Shown here piece after piece: positions 814 through 10,466 of a stretch of 64,000 nt of DNA. How positions within the stretch are numbered: position 1 is the stretch's first letter; every line of letters begins with the position of its first letter. Source of the DNA: Nostoc sp. 'Lobaria pulmonaria (5183) cyanobiont' (GTDB taxonomy: Bacteria > Cyanobacteriota > Cyanobacteriia > Cyanobacteriales > Nostocaceae); assembly GCF_002949795.1 (NCBI RefSeq), contig NZ_CP026692.1, forward strand, positions 1,857,501 to 1,921,500. Direction: 5' to 3'. The notes under the pieces were generated by a model. It did no database searches. It saw only the letters and a list, made by a program, of their open reading frames with translations, and was not told the DNA's origin. A program made the translations under genes and the position numbers.

Positions 814-1755
814 ATGCTAACCGCTGCAAAAACGTTATCTGGTTTGATGGGTTTATGTGTCGGTGATGCGTTGGGTGTGCCAGTGGAGTTTACTAGCCGT
901 GCTGAACGAGTAAAATCTCCAGTGACAACGATGTTGGGTTATGGCACATGGAATCAACCACCAGGAACTTGGTCAGATGACAGTTCGTTAAGCTTTTGCT
1001 TGGCAGAATGCCTTTGTAGGGGGTATTCGTTGGATGCTATAGCCAATTCCTTCTGGCGCTGGTACAAGGAGGCTTACTGGACTCCCCGTGGCGATGTTTT
1101 TGATATTGGTCAAACAACCCACACAGCAATTATGCGCCTGAAACAGGGAGTTGTTCCCCATCAGGCGGGCGGTAAGGTTGAAAATAGTAATGGCAATGGT
1201 TCGTTGATGAGAATCTTGCCAATAGCTTATTGTCACAGAAGCTTGACTTTAAGTGAATTGCTGGCGCGGGTGCATGATGTTTCGGCGATTACTCATGCTC
1301 ATGCGCGATCGCAAATGGCCTGCGGCATTTATATTAGTATTGCAGTGGCGCTCTTGGAAGGGGCTGACCTTCAAACAGCTTATCTACAAGCATTACAAGA
1401 CATCCAAACAATTTATTCTGTGCGAGAATTTTTGTTAGAGAAGCCGCATTTTGGCAGAGTTTTCAGTGGTGAGATTGCCAAAGTACCAGTAGAAGAGATT
1501 AATTCTGGTGGTTATGTGATTGATACCTTGGAGTCATCCCTGTGGTGTTTATTAAATAGTTCGTCTTATTCTGAGGCGGTACTAAAAGCTGTTAACTTAG
1601 GCGGAGATACCGATACTACTGCCGCTGTCACTGGTGGGTTAGCGGGAATTTACTACGGGGTGGAAAATATTCCCAAACAATGGATGAACCAAATTGCTCG
1701 TAGACAAGACATTATTTACTTGGCAGAGCGCTTTGCTAGGGCTGTTTACAGCTAG
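814..1755 (+). CDS. ADP-ribosylglycohydrolase family protein
   Basis: The 313-residue protein has the all-helical ADP-ribosylglycohydrolase (DraG/ARH) fold signatures in order. These are GDALG at residues 17-21, the metal-binding WSDDSS at 53-58, NGSLMR near residue 130, THAHARSQ shortly after, and GGDTDTTAA near residue 265. The acidic residues of the second and last motifs normally bind the two Mg2+ ions that position ADP-ribose. The family removes ADP-ribose from proteins or small molecules, but the substrate here cannot be read from sequence. DraG itself releases nitrogenase reductase from ADP-ribosylation, yet no dinitrogenase reductase ADP-ribosyltransferase lies nearby. The length is normal and all motif residues are present. 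The start is supported by a GGAG-like site before the ATG. Confidence 0.88.
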   Translation: MLTAAKTLSGLMGLCVGDALGVPVEFTSRAERVKSPVTTMLGYGTWNQPPGTWSDDSSLSFCLAECLCRGYSLDAIANSFWRWYKEAYWTPRGDVFDIGQTTHTAIMRLKQGVVPHQAGGKVENSNGNGSLMRILPIAYCHRSLTLSELLARVHDVSAITHAHARSQMACGIYISIAVALLEGADLQTAYLQALQDIQTIYSVREFLLEKPHFGRVFSGEIAKVPVEEINSGGYVIDTLESSLWCLLNSSSYSEAVLKAVNLGGDTDTTAAVTGGLAGIYYGVENIPKQWMNQIARRQDIIYLAERFARAVYS

Positions 1756-5310: not shown

Positions 5311-6992
5311 ATGAAGTATCAAGTTGGGGACGAGTTTTTACAAGAACTACCACTGATTTTAGGGGGGCCAATCCTCAAACATACTGAGCCGGAGTCTGTG
5401 ACAGTATGGGTAGCACTGAAACAGTCTTGTCAAATAAAGCTGAGAAAGTCAATAGTCATCTTTTCAGTTTAGGCGAATATTACGCTACTTATTTACTAGC
5501 TTGGTCGCCAGTGTGCTGGCCAACAGCATTTCCCCAAGGACATCAAGTAACGCGCGATCGCCATGCTATCAAAAAGTGGAACCGAGAAGTCCAGCATTTG
5601 CGCCAATTCATCTACACCCTTTGGAAAGTGCGCCGCGCCCTTGCCAATATCCCCATGTACAGCATCTTTGATGACCATGATATTAGTGATGACTGGAATT
5701 TGAACCAAGCTTGGTGTTTGCGAGTACTGGGGCATCCCTTAGGGCGAAGAATAGTCCAAAATGCATTGTTAGCTTATACGGTATTTCAGGGTTGGGGCAA
5801 TACACCAGGGCAATTTGCAGCAGGAAAACCAGGTGAAAAGTTGTTGACGGCTACACAAGTTTGGTCAGCTTCCCAAGGAACGGATGCAAAGGCTGATGAA
5901 GCGTTGGCGAAGCCCGCCGTAGGCATCGCTCGTTATGTAGGGATGCCAGCCAACGATCCGCACACAGACTTACCTATTTTAGTCCGAGATGGTTCAGTAT
6001 TCATTTTGGATCGAGATCCTGAAGCATTGACTTGGAACTACATAGTCCGCAGCGATTGCCATGAAGTAATTGTGCTGGATACGCGGACTTGGCGGGGTTA
6101 TCCAGCCGAGCAAAAACCAATTGCCCCACCAATGCTGTTGTGTCCAAAAGCCTTTGAGCAACAACTACTTTTACCTTTACAACAAGTAACTGAACAAACT
6201 CAGATTCAAACTACATTTGTGATTGCGCCCACGAATGTATTTGGATTACAAGTGATTGATTGGATTCATCATTGGCACTTACAACAGGAAAAAGTTTTTT
6301 CAACCGATGTTGGAGATGCCTGGAACATTAATGTTGAAGCCCTGGCAAAATTTCTAACCACCTTGTTTGAGGAACGCCAACAAGTCGTTATTCTTTCTGG
6401 AGATATCCATTACAGTTCTGTTGCTCACTTATCTTATGCACGCACCCATTCCAAATTACAATCTGTCTTGGTACAGTTAACCGCTAGTGCGTTGAAGAAT
6501 GAAGAGATTTTGACGCGGCTGATTCATACACGATTGAAAGATTGGCTGCTCCCAGAAAAGGCGCGACATTGGATAGGCTGGAGCAATCCACCCAATATGG
6601 TAGAAATTTCTGAGAAACAATTACACCATAATCGCCAGCTGCTGACTAACTCTGAATGGCATTGTGTACTGGAGTGGATACCTCGAAACAGTGTTCAGAT
6701 TTCTACCTACACAGCAGATATATTATCGTTGATAGCTCCCTGGAAACGAACCGAAAATGCTAAATGGAAATGGTTACAACCACTGATTTTTTGGAAATCT
6801 CGTTGGTTTCAGGAAGGACGAGAAGTCGTTGGATTGAATAATTTAGCTGTGGTTCACTTTCAGTTAGCAGATGAGAGTAGTTCTTGCAAAGTTATGCAAG
6901 ATTTGTACTGGTTTTCTTCTTGGTATCCAACCCAAATTGTTTACAGCCGTTTTGAGAGCCAGTTAACGCCCAATCAGTCTTTATTACGATAA
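5311..6992 (+). pseudogene. PhoD-like metallophosphatase, internal deletion plus frameshift
   Basis: From ATG 5311 one frame encodes LQELPLILGGPILKHTEPES followed by VTVWVALKQSCQIKL, the usual N-terminus of cyanobacterial PhoD-like phosphatases. It stops 54 codons in. The rest of the gene continues in another frame, open from 5406, with NKAEKVNSHLFSLGEYY, FDDHDISDDW and VVILSGDIHYSSV. In intact family members these two parts are separated by roughly 200 residues that include the first metal-binding motif (FTGDQIYADD type), and no such motif is present here. The simplest reading is a deletion of about 600 bp fused out of frame near 5405-5450. The long 3' frame could still be translated from 5406, but it would lack part of the metal site. 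Calling it a pseudogene is inference from family layout. Confidence 0.75.
5901..5929. repeat. Small dispersed repeat inside the phoD-like frame
   Basis: The 29 bp beginning GCGTTGGCGAAGCCCGCC and ending AGGCATCGC match the style of SDR palindromes found at several other sites in this window (for example 32837, 34835 and 56041). Here it sits in frame and encodes EALAKPAVGIA, which has no place in the family alignment as I know it. Confidence 0.6.
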
Positions 6993-7073
6993 CCAGCTTT
7001 GCTGTGTGAATGGAAATTTTAGTTGTATATGTGGGCACTCTAGATTTAAGAAACATACTGGAGAGTGATTTCT

Positions 7074-7548
7074 ATGTCTACGACCCCAATTAGTGCAACA
7101 CTGGCACAAACAGAGAGAGATGCTGTGTTGCAAGCGATTAGCACGATTAAAGAAAAGTTACCATTTTTAGTTGATTTGAGGTTTCGACGATCGCAAGACT
7201 TTACCCAAGATGGGCGATAAGAGTCGGGCGTTTGTAAGCAAAGCATTAGAGGTGGCGGCGCAGAACCCAGAGTTTTTACCGCGATCGTTCGATTTGGATG
7301 AAATGCGAAAGGACGTGCAATTATTTGAAGCGTTGTATCCGGTGTTGTTATCCTTGACACAATTGCAAGAACTCGTGGATGATACTTCTTTGGCAGTAGG
7401 CAGTGAAGCTTATGCAGCGGCGTTGCAAGTGTATAGCTATGCCAAAGCCAGTGGACAAGGGGCGGGTTTAGATACAGTGGTTGCGGAAATGGGAAAACGA
7501 TTTACTCGTAAACCTGTAAAGTTGGAGCCTAAAGAACCAATGTTGTAG
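7074..7548 (+). pseudogene. Conserved small cyanobacterial protein, frameshifted
   Basis: A frame starting at ATG 7074 behind GGAGAG reads MSTTPISATLAQTERDAVLQ and on to KEKLPFLVDL, then runs out of phase and stops at 7218-7220. The next frame, entered near 7180, continues GFDDRKTLPKMGDKSRAFV to 7548. The two pieces read as one helical protein of about 158 residues. One extra base (or two missing) near 7177-7182 explains the break. The family resembles uncharacterised cyanobacterial proteins of this size and I know no function. A sequencing error is possible, but the gene lies in a decayed neighbourhood, which favours a real mutation. Confidence 0.65.
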
Positions 7549-7569
7549 AAAATAAGTTGGTAGTTGCAC

Positions 7570-7829
7570 GTCAAAAGTAAAACGTTAGAGCTTCAGAACT
7601 TGAATGTTGGAGTTAAAAGCACGACATTTCGAGTTCAGAAGCTCAACGTTCGAGCAAAAAGGTGCAACTTCCGAGTTCAGAGGCTCAACGTTCCACCAAA
7701 AAGGTGCAACTTCCGAGTTCAGAGGCTCAACGTTCGAGCAAAAATATGCAACTTTCGAGTTCAGAGGCTCAACGTTCGAGCAAAAAGGTGCAACTTCCGA
7801 GTTCAGAGGCTCAACGTTCGAGTAAAAAG
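7570..7829. repeat. 42-nt tandem array (2 x 21-nt subunits)
   Basis: Copies begin exactly 42 nt apart at 7591, 7633, 7675, 7717, 7759 and 7801, the last one partial. The first copy is degenerate and the next four nearly identical. Each 42-mer splits into two related 21-mers sharing CAAC.T.CGAG. All three forward frames are open because the period is a multiple of three and the unit lacks stops. No frame has a credible start signal, so I treat the array as non-coding. Confidence 0.9.
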
Positions 7830-7838
7830 TATATATTA

Positions 7839-7871
7839 CCCCCTTTTTTAAGGGGGGCAGGGGGGATCAAA
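7839..7871. repeat. Left terminal inverted repeat of the DUF559 unit
   Basis: C5-T6-AA-G6-CA-G6-ATCAA, the inverse of 8246-8277. It abuts the end of the 42-nt array with about 9 nt between them. Confidence 0.8.
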
Positions 7872-7935
7872 ACTAGAAACTATAACAGAAAACCTCAATA
7901 ATAGCGATTTCCATCTACCCTACAATCCAAAGCTT

Positions 7936-8268
7936 GTGGAAAGAGCAAAAGAACTTCGCAAAAACATGACTTCAGCAGAAAAGAAGCTTTGGTATGGATA
8001 TCTGAGAACCTTTCAATTTCGCGTTTTAAGACAACGGACAATTAATCATTTCATCGTTGATTTCTACTGTCCGATTTTAAAAGTAGTGATAGAAATTGAT
8101 GGGGATAGTCATTTTACAGATCGAGGTCAAGATTATGACATGGAGAGAACTCATATTCTGGAGGGCTATGGTTTAAAGGTTCTCAGGTTTACAAATAGCC
8201 AAGTTTTAAATCAGTTTGATAGTGTGTGTGAGATGATACAGGGTTTGATCCCCCCTAACCCCCCTTAA
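7936..8268 (+). CDS. DUF559 (Vsr/restriction-endonuclease-like) protein
   Basis: The 110-residue product has the DUF559 pattern: AKELRKNMTSAEKKLWY, then FRVLRQ, FIVDFYCP, VVIEIDGDSH and LRFTN. The spaced acidic residues of VDFYC and EIDGDSH fit a PD-(D/E)XK-type nuclease fold related to Vsr. In-frame similarity continues upstream of the GTG at 7936 (LPYNPKL, usual in the family), but no ATG is available before the left repeat, so the native start may lie further up or use a rare codon. The C-terminus GLIPPNPP and the stop are encoded by the right inverted repeat. Nuclease activity, target and any role in movement are unknown. Confidence 0.8.
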   Translation: MERAKELRKNMTSAEKKLWYGYLRTFQFRVLRQRTINHFIVDFYCPILKVVIEIDGDSHFTDRGQDYDMERTHILEGYGLKVLRFTNSQVLNQFDSVCEMIQGLIPPNPP

Positions 8269-8277
8269 AAAGGGGGG
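8246..8277. repeat. Right terminal inverted repeat of the DUF559 unit
   Basis: TTGAT-C6-TAA-C6-TTAAAAA-G6, the inverse of 7839-7871. It supplies the last codons and stop of the DUF559 gene and could also act as its terminator hairpin. Confidence 0.8.
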
Positions 8278-8433
8278 AAATTGTAGTTTAGTTTTTTCAA
8301 GCAGCGATCGCCTTCCAACCGCGCTTATCCAACCTCAGATATCGAAGGTTGCACTTCAGAGGTTAAAAAGTTGAGCTAGAAGTTTAGAATTTGAGTTACA
8401 AGAGATATAGCTTACTGGCATAAGGGTTAGACA

Positions 8434-9087
8434 ATGAGTGAAACTCAGACCCAGTTACCGACAGATATATGGATTTGTGCTTCTTGGCAAGAGTATGAGC
8501 AAGCGATCGCTAACTTGCTCAACGAGAAGGCAAAGAGTTACTACTATAAGGGGCACATGAGGCTGGAGATCGCACGAGTTAGTTTTGATCATGGTAAAGA
8601 CCATGTTGTAATTATTTTTGCAGTGACTCTATTTGCGGCACTTAAAGGAATACTGGCGACAGGTTTAGACACAACCACTTTTCGTAAAACTGGAGTTCAG
8701 GACTGTCAGCCCGATGTAGCGTATTACCTTAGAGAACGTGCCCAAACTATCCCAGCAGGTACAGGAATCGTCAACCTTGATCGGTATCCTGTACCAGATT
8801 TAGTGATTGAGATTGCGAAAACATCTCTGCTGGATGACTTAGGTACAAAGCGATCGCTCTATGAAGAGTTAAGCGTTGCTGAATATTGGGTAGTAGATGT
8901 TCAAAATGCCCAAATCATTGCTTATGCTATGGCAGAGCAGGGTAGTAAACGTATTCAAGAATCACAAGTATTGCCGGGATTGGCGATGTTTACTTTAGAG
9001 GAAGCTTTACGCCGTAGCCGTGAGATGAATCAATCTGAAGTTGGGGCTTGGTTATTGAGCCAGTTTCAGCAAAAGGAGTATTGTTAA
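8434..9087 (+). CDS. Uma2 family (DUF820) endonuclease-like protein
   Basis: The 217-residue protein shows the Uma2 restriction-endonuclease-like core: QPDVAYYL near residue 90, PDLVIEIAKTSLLDDLGTKR near 125, and YEELSVAEYWVVD near 145. The Asp and Glu of these motifs and the following Lys make a PD-(D/E)XK site. Uma2 genes occur in many copies in filamentous cyanobacteria and their function is unresolved. The family motif usually reads VVEI-S-, and here it is VIEIAK, with Ala in place of the common Ser. The stop overlaps the stop of the convergent DUF2079 gene by 4 nt. Confidence 0.87.
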   Translation: MSETQTQLPTDIWICASWQEYEQAIANLLNEKAKSYYYKGHMRLEIARVSFDHGKDHVVIIFAVTLFAALKGILATGLDTTTFRKTGVQDCQPDVAYYLRERAQTIPAGTGIVNLDRYPVPDLVIEIAKTSLLDDLGTKRSLYEELSVAEYWVVDVQNAQIIAYAMAEQGSKRIQESQVLPGLAMFTLEEALRRSREMNQSEVGAWLLSQFQQKEYC

Positions 9088-10466
9088 CTAATAGTTTTTT
9101 CAAAAAGATATACATCATCTTGTTGATATTCAAAGTGAAAATTTGACTGGTTTTTCAATATATTTACTAAGTTAGAAAGAGATTCGGAACTTGCAGCCCA
9201 ACCTGAATGGCGAACATTTAGCAAGACATAATAAAACTTATTCAATTCAGCAATATTTTGGGAAGGATTATATTTAAAACTAATTAACTGTCTGTGGGTT
9301 AAATGTGGAGTAATTATATCTGTAGTTAAAACGCTATCTTTAGTCTTCACTAGAGCGATCGCCTCTTTTGTGGCTGCCCAATTATCTATATTGTGGAGGT
9401 ATTTTGAGCTAAAGAAACCATATTTTCCGAAAGCGAAAAAGCAAAGTAATGACCACAAAATAATTGCTCGTCTTTGTTTTAGCCATGCTTTACCTGCTGC
9501 TAGGCTGGCAATTAAAACTAAAATAAGAAATGGAATTGCTGGTAAAGAATAATGTAAAACCAGATTTTTTTGTGAAGGATGATCGGCAAGTAAATTTAGT
9601 GCTATACAAGGAATTATACTTATCAATGGTGTGAGGTATTGTGGTCTGAAACCCCAAATAACAGGTAAAAATAAAAAACATAAATATTCTAAGTTTATAG
9701 TTGAAAAAAGGTTGTTAAAAATGATTTTGGGTTGAAACAGTAATATTTGTAGCATTTCGGAAAATGAGTTTCCCAAATAGCTATAGCGATAAAGATGACG
9801 GTTCAATAAGGTTGCTTCGCTACCAAAATAAGGGATGATCATCCAGTTAGCAATCAAAAACCATATTGTTCCACTAATAATTGCGATCGCACCATATAAA
9901 CGTCGCTTTTCAAACAAGAGTAACCAAATCCCCATTGCAACTACAGTCAGTGATAATACAGCTTTACAACCCAATACCACAAGAATACTGACGCAAAACC
10001 AAGCTATTTTTCTCGATCTAGCGGTCAAAACTGCGAACAAAAGGGCAGGGACTGCGATCGTATCAGGGTGAAAATCACAGAGATTGCTATTGTACACCAC
10101 CGGATACATTAGATATACAGCCACTATTGCGACTGCTAAATTTTCTTTTAAACCTGCTTGCAGCGCCAGAAAATATGTAGGTAAAGCACCTAACGCTAAA
10201 GCAACAGACTGTACTGCAAACAGCCAATAAACGCTAGGGTAAATTTTGTACAGTAAAGCCAAAGGATATAAAATCCAAGCAGCATGATCGGCTAACAGAT
10301 GAAAACCAAGTACAGAAGAAACTGGCGGTTTTCCTTGACTAATTAAGTAAATACATTGGTCAAAAAATGCTAAATCCCCAGATGAATTAAATAATTCGTG
10401 TCGTAAGCTACTGGAGATAAATAAAATTAAGCTACTAATGCCGATAATTACTTTAATATGACTCAT
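9084..10466 (-). CDS. DUF2079 polytopic membrane protein (GT-C-like)
   Basis: The 460-residue protein has about ten hydrophobic segments and an early GDLAFFDQCIYLISQGK loop with the acidic residue typical of GT-C glycosyltransferase first loops. It then has FHPDTIAVPALLFAV. This matches DUF2079, a family of predicted membrane glycosyltransferases that use lipid-linked sugars. The gene follows the Gpi18-like gene by 50 nt on the same strand, suggesting co-transcription. Donor and acceptor are unknown, but surface glycan or glycolipid synthesis is likely. Confidence 0.8.
   Translation of the reverse strand: MSHIKVIIGISSLILFISSSLRHELFNSSGDLAFFDQCIYLISQGKPPVSSVLGFHLLADHAAWILYPLALLYKIYPSVYWLFAVQSVALALGALPTYFLALQAGLKENLAVAIVAVYLMYPVVYNSNLCDFHPDTIAVPALLFAVLTARSRKIAWFCVSILVVLGCKAVLSLTVVAMGIWLLLFEKRRLYGAIAIISGTIWFLIANWMIIPYFGSEATLLNRHLYRYSYLGNSFSEMLQILLFQPKIIFNNLFSTINLEYLCFLFLPVIWGFRPQYLTPLISIIPCIALNLLADHPSQKNLVLHYSLPAIPFLILVLIASLAAGKAWLKQRRAIILWSLLCFFAFGKYGFFSSKYLHNIDNWAATKEAIALVKTKDSVLTTDIITPHLTHRQLISFKYNPSQNIAELNKFYYVLLNVRHSGWAASSESLSNLVNILKNQSNFHFEYQQDDVYLFEKTIS

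Follow-up and report, generated by a model that had tools for sequence, protein, structure and literature searches.

The Pfam family DUF559 has no known function. Rickettsia palindromic elements are palindromic repeats that lie in frame within protein genes and, to our knowledge, carry no gene. In the available text of PMC1189080, Escherichia coli YcjD is assigned to the PD-(D/E)XK superfamily, and according to the available text of PMC12907096 a DUF559 protein of Caulobacter, VsrA, causes DNA-damage signalling when the matching methylation is missing. An intrastrand triplex motif, TMECO, has been described in more than 260 genomes, with 23 copies in strain MG1655, five as inverted pairs (PMC4666352). 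For this motif the available text of the same paper describes neither a flanking-gene pattern nor any sign of transposases or integrases, and it reports that an earlier study saw no promoter or terminator activity in PIT elements. Our search of open-licence papers found no report linking DUF559 with these repeats, and the main text of PMC12306157 (RepRanger) contains 0 mentions of DUF559.

Here, we have analyzed a DUF559 gene that lies between two C/G-rich repeats in a window of 64,000 nucleotides (the whole stretch of DNA under study, from the contig NZ_CP026692.1 of the cyanobiont Nostoc sp. 'Lobaria pulmonaria (5183)'). A sequence-only reading of this window had proposed that the gene and its ends form a minimal mobile element, in parallel with RAYT transposases and their REP palindromes. 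We compared the locus with related loci in Nostocaceae and in other phyla, and found that paired repeats are a common companion of DUF559 genes.

The window copy and its enzyme

The ends and the gene are as first described. Inverted arms of 46 nt (window 7826-7871 and 8244-8289) are 80% complementary at a spacing of 372 nt, and the frame between them matches Pfam DUF559 with 99.6 bits (cut-off 20.6). The sequence-only reading was also right that the end of the gene belongs to the right repeat: the right palindrome contains the last codons (IPPNPP) and the stop TAA at 8266-8268. When the palindrome CCCCCCTTAAAAAGGGGGG was searched with up to three mismatches, four matches were found in the window, all of them at the two ends, and 0 in 100 shuffles. 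The left unit is a close mirror of the right unit on the opposite strand, that is, the same palindromic unit in inverted order (Table 1). In each unit a single G-arm accompanies two C-arms and could pair with either of them; both units are predicted to form single-strand DNA hairpins (z -2.4 and -2.7). A copy in another genome (G057), 97% identical to that of the window, has an ATG where the window copy reads ATA, so that a downstream GTG is the first usable start in frame. With its usual start codon lost, the window copy may be decaying and perhaps no longer acts by itself.

Table 1. Features of the window locus and of elements that carry copies of its repeats (numbers without a locus name are window positions)
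Feature	Position	Strand	Remark
Short tandem repeat array, just 5' of the unit	7592..7829	+	Same-genus alignments end at 7829
TATATATTA, edge of the conserved unit	7830..7838	.	First bases common to the 97% identical G057 unit; immediate surroundings differ there
Left repeat unit, GAT-C6-TG-C6-TTAAAAAA-G5	7839..7868	-	Minus-strand reading; two C-arms, one G-arm; GATC end gene-facing
DUF559 open frame	7867..8268	+	ATA at 7882-7884, where the G057 copy has ATG
DUF559 coding sequence	7936..8268	+	GTG as first usable start; TAA inside the right repeat
Right repeat unit, GAT-C6-TAA-C6-TTAAAAA-G6	8247..8277	+	GATC end gene-facing; provides the last codons and the stop
MITE-borne palindrome pairs	L005, L006, L015, L017, L018, L031, about 1430-1600		Target duplications of 9-10 bp in several, by eye
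Larger element with one second-family pair each	L292-L301, L303-L305		Thirteen nearly identical copies

An AlphaFold model of the window protein had a mean pLDDT of 88.1 and a pTM of 0.81. The nearest solved structure was 3hrl, a DUF559 protein of Neisseria gonorrhoeae, with a fold value of 2.8e-5 and a profile value of 2.4e-42, the latter inflated because the profile includes a gonococcal row. The catalytic domain of the homing endonuclease I-Bth0305I (3r3p) was matched at a profile E of 0.0014 and a fold E of 8.7e-5, and the Vsr structure 1cw0 at a fold E of 0.039. Against the NCBIfam vsr model, the window protein had no match up to E 1, and one of ten other frames reached 26.4 bits, under the cut-off of 97.85, among the matches listed. 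Invariant residues include R25, E32, D59, E70, D72 and H76 (window protein numbered from 7885), in keeping with a putative active nuclease. By its predicted fold, which is Vsr/I-Bth0305I-like, the DUF559 nuclease is kin of both Vsr and I-Bth0305I. A scan for Rfam introns gave no match in six loci or in window 6900-9200, and no intein family was present among the matches listed for the ten frames.

In the window's own genome, the family search returned four DUF559 matches, one of them truncated, and it should be noted that the same search was silent in an E. coli control genome despite the annotation of ycjD in MG1655, so its counts may be low. Repeats of the C-rich type lie beside all four. 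Two of the genes have the window's GAT-C6 family, whereas the other two have a second, paired family (CCCTCACCCC...CTCTCCC-loop-GGGAGAGGGG), of which only the upstream copy was observed at the truncated gene. With up to three mismatches, the window palindrome has 54 matches per strand in the whole genome, compared with 0 and 1 for a reversed-pattern control; since it is nearly self-complementary, a single site can be counted on both strands. Most of the 30 palindrome loci that were retrieved, some of which overlap, are inverted pairs with their GATC ends outward. RAYT was also considered as the mobiliser in this genome and was rejected, as 0 of its 5 Y1 genes are flanked by these repeat units.

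Paired repeats at DUF559 genes in other genomes

To describe the surroundings of DUF559 genes in general, the left 350 bp of each locus was compared with the reverse complement of the right 350 bp, and both flanks were searched for three-arm units. Among 50 distinct DUF559 loci of Nostocaceae, the inverted-repeat score was at least 22 in 37, a unit was present on at least one side in 47 and units were present on both sides in 37. A stricter set of 44 loci leaves out six whose detection had relied on a DNA match to the window (L178-L183; L180, L182 and the further locus L003 are one orthologous locus), and gave 31, 41 and 32, respectively. Uma2, an abundant family, served as a control in the same 40 genomes: in its 30 loci the corresponding counts were 1, 12 and 1. 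The difference in both-side units was highly significant for either set (Fisher p 1.6e-10 with 50 loci and 5.9e-10 with 44 loci). Three-arm units are thus enriched in the flanks of Nostocaceae DUF559 genes, an enrichment that the sequence-only reading had proposed to look for in Nostocales.

Loci of other phyla, mostly Proteobacteria, were chosen on protein similarity alone, as the best 80 of at least 507 that were confirmed, and 79 of them were usable, one having flanks that were too short. The score was at least 22 in 60 of these 79, a unit was found on at least one side in 61 and on both sides in 38, and 18 were without any unit in the three-arm test. In shifted windows of the same loci, both-side units were seen in 16 of 647 and units on at least one side in 179 of 647, and an inverted score of at least 22 occurred in 212 of 1133. 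With shuffled flanks, both-side units were found in 0 of 51 and 0 of 79 (one locus, L054 or L196:11926, is counted twice in this shifted-window and shuffle set, and also in the first Mantel and the first pair-count sets given below). Eight genes were also collected whose larger products contain a distant DUF559-like domain; two were excluded for short flanks, and such units were present in 0 of the other 6.

Because the flank measures had been picked after the first loci were seen, a hold-out run with the test fixed beforehand was carried out on 27 new loci from a phylum-wide draw. Loci of the same class had units on at least one side in 11 of 11 cases and on both sides in 7 of 11 (6 of 8 when three loci of the window's own family were removed), compared with 6 and 0 of 22 edge windows. 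More distant cyanobacterial families were weaker, with both-side units in 1 of 4 and 3 of 12 loci and a score of at least 22 in 3 of 4 and 7 of 12. We therefore have high confidence that the association between DUF559 genes and these repeats is real and general. The idea of paired ends had been staked on their presence at DUF559 genes elsewhere, and it survived, such ends being found in many groups; by contrast, the view of the palindromes as a cyanobacterial speciality was not supported, since the same architecture occurs in other phyla.

The nearest unit has its head toward the gene in 136 of 183 flanks, but in ispE and in the priA genes of the small genomes the heads are directed outward. 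Forms of the element may differ in their ends, or the gene may be flanked by whole pairs in some cases and by single units in others. Four related loci are located in viral contigs. An unusually long inverted repeat, with a score of 130, surrounds the DUF559 gene of a Legionella anisa locus (L088).

We also measured how repeat similarity relates to the similarity of the nucleases. Left repeats were compared with right repeats from other loci, which leaves little weight to plain orthology of the flanks. Repeat similarity rises with protein identity, with a Mantel rho of 0.42 in 43 Nostocaceae loci from which duplicates and loci found by DNA match had been removed (0 of 2000 permutations); the first Nostocaceae set (50 loci, L004 omitted) had given 0.50. 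In other phyla (79 loci of the best 80), rho was 0.27, again with 0 of 2000 permutations. Each locus was then labelled by the best of six query proteins, and pairs with a score of at least 22 made up 99 of 179 for the same clade in different genomes, 3 of 24 for different clades in the same genome and 72 of 697 for unrelated pairs; a first version with duplicates had given 179 of 275, 3 of 24 and 91 of 921, respectively. Different-clade pairs within one genome are no better than unrelated ones, so the pairing is not explained by which repeats a host genome has in stock. The repeat type tracks the nuclease clade and not the genome. Pattern counts were higher in the nine genomes with clade A (2 to 41) than in the 31 without it (median 1; p=0.0016), in a correlation that is only loose, as five genomes without clade A are still pattern-rich with 14 to 69 matches.

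By their arms, many repeats at the other-phyla loci belong to the TMECO/PIT class. A TMECO match was defined as three arms (CCCTCNCCC / GGGNGAGGG / GGGNGAGGG) with at most one mismatch per arm, and such units lie within 350 bp of DUF559 in 49 of the 80 other-phyla loci (the best 80 of at least 507), compared with 9 of 287 windows elsewhere in the same loci, 12 of 50 Nostocaceae loci and 0 of 30 Uma2 loci. In MG1655, TMECO copy no. 9 (1351205-1351239) is found 168 bp past the stop end of ycjD, which is annotated there as the DUF559 protein YcjD. Other REP classes were also considered. DUF559 as the missing partner of CGTC REPs, which have no known transposase and are treated in the available text of PMC3733652, was rejected, as a CGTC head with an AT-starting stem was seen in 1 of 80 loci. 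A GTAG-like pattern was present in the DUF559 flanks of 2 of 80 loci.

Block presence, host genes and MITE-borne copies

Alleles without DUF559 exist at the window locus, where the sequence-only reading had proposed to compare strains for empty sites. Both neighbours are present in G051 and G044, with 36 bp and 158 bp between them, respectively, and without DUF559. In these two and in further same-genus genomes the upstream alignment ends at window 7829, and the border is not clean since the site lies inside a tandem array. The G057 unit is 97% identical over window 7830-8273 and has different immediate surroundings. The upstream-neighbour gene, 85% identical, is found there 3.6 kb from the unit, with a large methylase-like gene between them (L178 1443-4814), and because of this shared neighbour the G057 site may represent a rearranged neighbourhood, not a distant jump. 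At another locus (L001), the block is absent in G041, where flanks of 83% and 97% identity are separated by 106 unrelated bp. The L003 block is present in G048 and G050 and absent in G056 and also, as judged from the gap in the match, in G044, G054, G041 and G055. The block thus varies as a unit between relatives. The proposed minimal mobile element fits this presence and absence at orthologous loci, although gain and loss are indistinguishable at most sites.

At several loci, the repeat-DUF559-repeat block lies in frame within another gene, and the repeats are translated as linkers of the PSP...GEG type. Family matches on both sides were obtained for priA (L103, L315), hsdS (L122), a methylase gene (L332) and earP (L112, profile positions 1-97 and 102-370). 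Support of this kind is weaker for ispE (L309) and a further methylase gene (L321). Translations alone point to priA in L311 and L314 and to methylase genes in L322, L323 and L325, and in L198 one side of the block matches a methylase. At L309, a single frame holds two DUF559 domains, one preceding ispE and the other within it.

In one cyanobacterial family of small genomes, priA contains the block in 3 of 18 genomes, in a hand-picked sample that includes three known carriers and in which 3 of the 18 loci are without the anchor motif. Empty sites in the non-carriers are near-clean: the host parts lie 6 bp apart in G117, G111 and G069 and 9 bp apart in G074 and G097, and the translations are smooth. 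By eye, no target duplication was seen at the priA sites, and other sites are too diverged to judge. Since the L103 and L315 blocks occupy different places in PriA (profile about 128/135 and 209/215, respectively), at least two events took place. At the same priA place, four genomes (L340 in G072, L342 in G088, L346 in G060 and L351 in G083) have other long in-frame segments without DUF559, one of which has internal repeats; this point of priA is a tolerant site.

Part of the repeat copies are carried by other elements. Pairs of the window palindrome lie inside a MITE with the ends CAATACGGTTCGGTTAA / TTATCCGAACCGTATTG in 6 of the 30 retrieved loci by pattern and in 7 by eye, and an empty site for it is present in G042 (locus L250). 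This MITE, with CAATACGG ends, has multiplied some gene-less copies of the palindrome, and a larger near-identical element (inverted AACCGTAGTT...AACTACGGTT) holds 13 of the 15 second-family copies among the top matches listed. One end of the MITE, CAATACGATTCGGTTA, is found at L003 (1259-1274) and in its orthologue L182, at the edge of the block. A scan of Nostocaceae covered two kinds of end; 4 of 50 DUF559 loci and 1 of 30 Uma2 loci had this MITE end at a distance of 1 kb or less, and none was found within window 6800-9400. The suggestion that the DUF559 nuclease has spread all copies of the palindrome was therefore not supported, as part of them lie inside MITE/IS elements.

Interpretation and comparison with known systems

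The reading that we favor, with a probability of roughly 0.6, is that of a mobile element similar to REPs, in which a homing-type nuclease takes the place of the RAYT transposase as resident protein and moves the repeats. The feature in the window would then represent a small element of wide occurrence, in which a DUF559 gene is carried between REP-like repeats. The repeats would fold from one strand into a hairpin, with a third, equivalent C-arm remaining, and the nuclease would recognize the folded repeat, or an uninserted target, when the strand is exposed. It would nick or cut at the recognized place, and repair would then copy the block, or only the repeat pair, into a new site. Gene-less repeat pairs would be derivatives of the element, as REPINs are for RAYTs. 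We give even odds to a broader form of this reading, in which DUF559 nucleases would fill the missing role of mobiliser for the intrastrand-triplex REP class (PIT/TMECO/BoxC and relatives) across bacteria, in transposase-free mobile elements whose triplex-capable repeats enclose a homing-type nuclease. Elements of this kind could settle inside essential genes because a single open frame runs through repeats and gene.

Other explanations have to be weighed against this one. The repeats might be ordinary REP-like repeats of the host that collect in tolerant intergenic places where DUF559 genes also land. Units on at least one side near 12 of the 30 Uma2 controls would agree with such hitchhiking, as would the fact that most genomic copies of the window palindrome lie away from the four DUF559 genes; however, it accounts poorly for both-side units at 37 of 50 (or 32 of 44) DUF559 loci vs 1 of 30 controls, for 0 of 6 among the larger proteins whose DUF559-like domain is distant, and for a repeat type that follows the nuclease clade across genomes while clades within one genome differ in their repeats. 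We consider it very unlikely. It is also possible to regard the blocks and repeat pairs as cargo of DDE-transposase MITE/IS elements, with DUF559 as a passenger. The MITE that encloses 6 of 30 palindrome loci, for which G042 has an empty site and several copies show 9-10 bp duplications by eye, the larger element with 13 of the 15 listed second-family copies, and the MITE end at the block edge in L003/L182 all speak for cargo. Yet this MITE end lies near only 4 of 50 Nostocaceae DUF559 loci and is absent from window 6800-9400, and the clade-specific pairing over many groups would be left unexplained, which makes this account quite unlikely.

A role in regulation or insulation seems unlikely as well. 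In this case, a DUF559 gene serving repair or defence, as proposed for Caulobacter VsrA, would have the repeats as its terminators or attenuators, and they would stay with the gene through selection and not for mobility. Their predicted folding into hairpins is compatible with such a function, and VsrA works in DNA-damage biology (PMC12907096, available text). On the other hand, many repeat copies have no gene, a terminator would shorten the host protein where the block sits in frame (priA, earP, hsdS and methylase genes), and PIT elements had neither promoter nor terminator activity as reported in the available text of PMC4666352.

The reading of a nuclease that moves its own repeats would join two orphans, the DUF559 family and the triplex-type repeats, which the available text of PMC4666352 places in more than 260 genomes while giving neither a function nor a sign of mobility genes. 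Their pairing makes both testable, including in E. coli K-12. If true, it would provide a nuclease-only route for the origin of repeats and of in-frame protein inserts, and would bear on how PriA-like proteins acquired extra segments as well as on the reading of DUF559 proteins with proposed repair roles, such as VsrA.

Compared with known systems, the element shares several features with REP/RAYT systems (REPtrons and REPINs): short palindromic units, often in inverted pairs and with many gene-less copies, and one partner gene that is flanked by the same units and co-varies with them. The parallel that the sequence-only reading drew with RAYTs and REPs is thus apt as a way of working, but the partner is different, a PD-(D/E)XK nuclease of the DUF559 family vs an HUH Y1 transposase, with a GTAG tag at only 2 of 80 loci and none of the five Y1 genes flanked. 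By membership, the locus belongs to the DUF559 family and is not a RAYT system.

The repeats resemble TMECO/PIT/BoxC in having one C-arm and two G-arms on one strand, short loops, inverted pairs, an intergenic position and a distribution over many genomes. The window unit follows the same three-arm plan, but its arms differ in sequence (C6/G6) and one loop, of 7 nt, slightly exceeds the limit of 1-6 nt given in the available text of PMC4666352. That text named no mobility gene for TMECO, whereas a DUF559 partner is proposed here.

With the homing endonuclease I-Bth0305I, the element has in common a related catalytic domain and a small nuclease gene able to sit within host genes; it differs in that no Rfam intron match was obtained in six loci or in window 6900-9200, no intein family was among the matches listed for ten frames, and the host frame stays open through the repeats. 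In-frame placement is likewise shared with Rickettsia palindromic elements, whereas DUF559 blocks carry a nuclease gene between their repeats.
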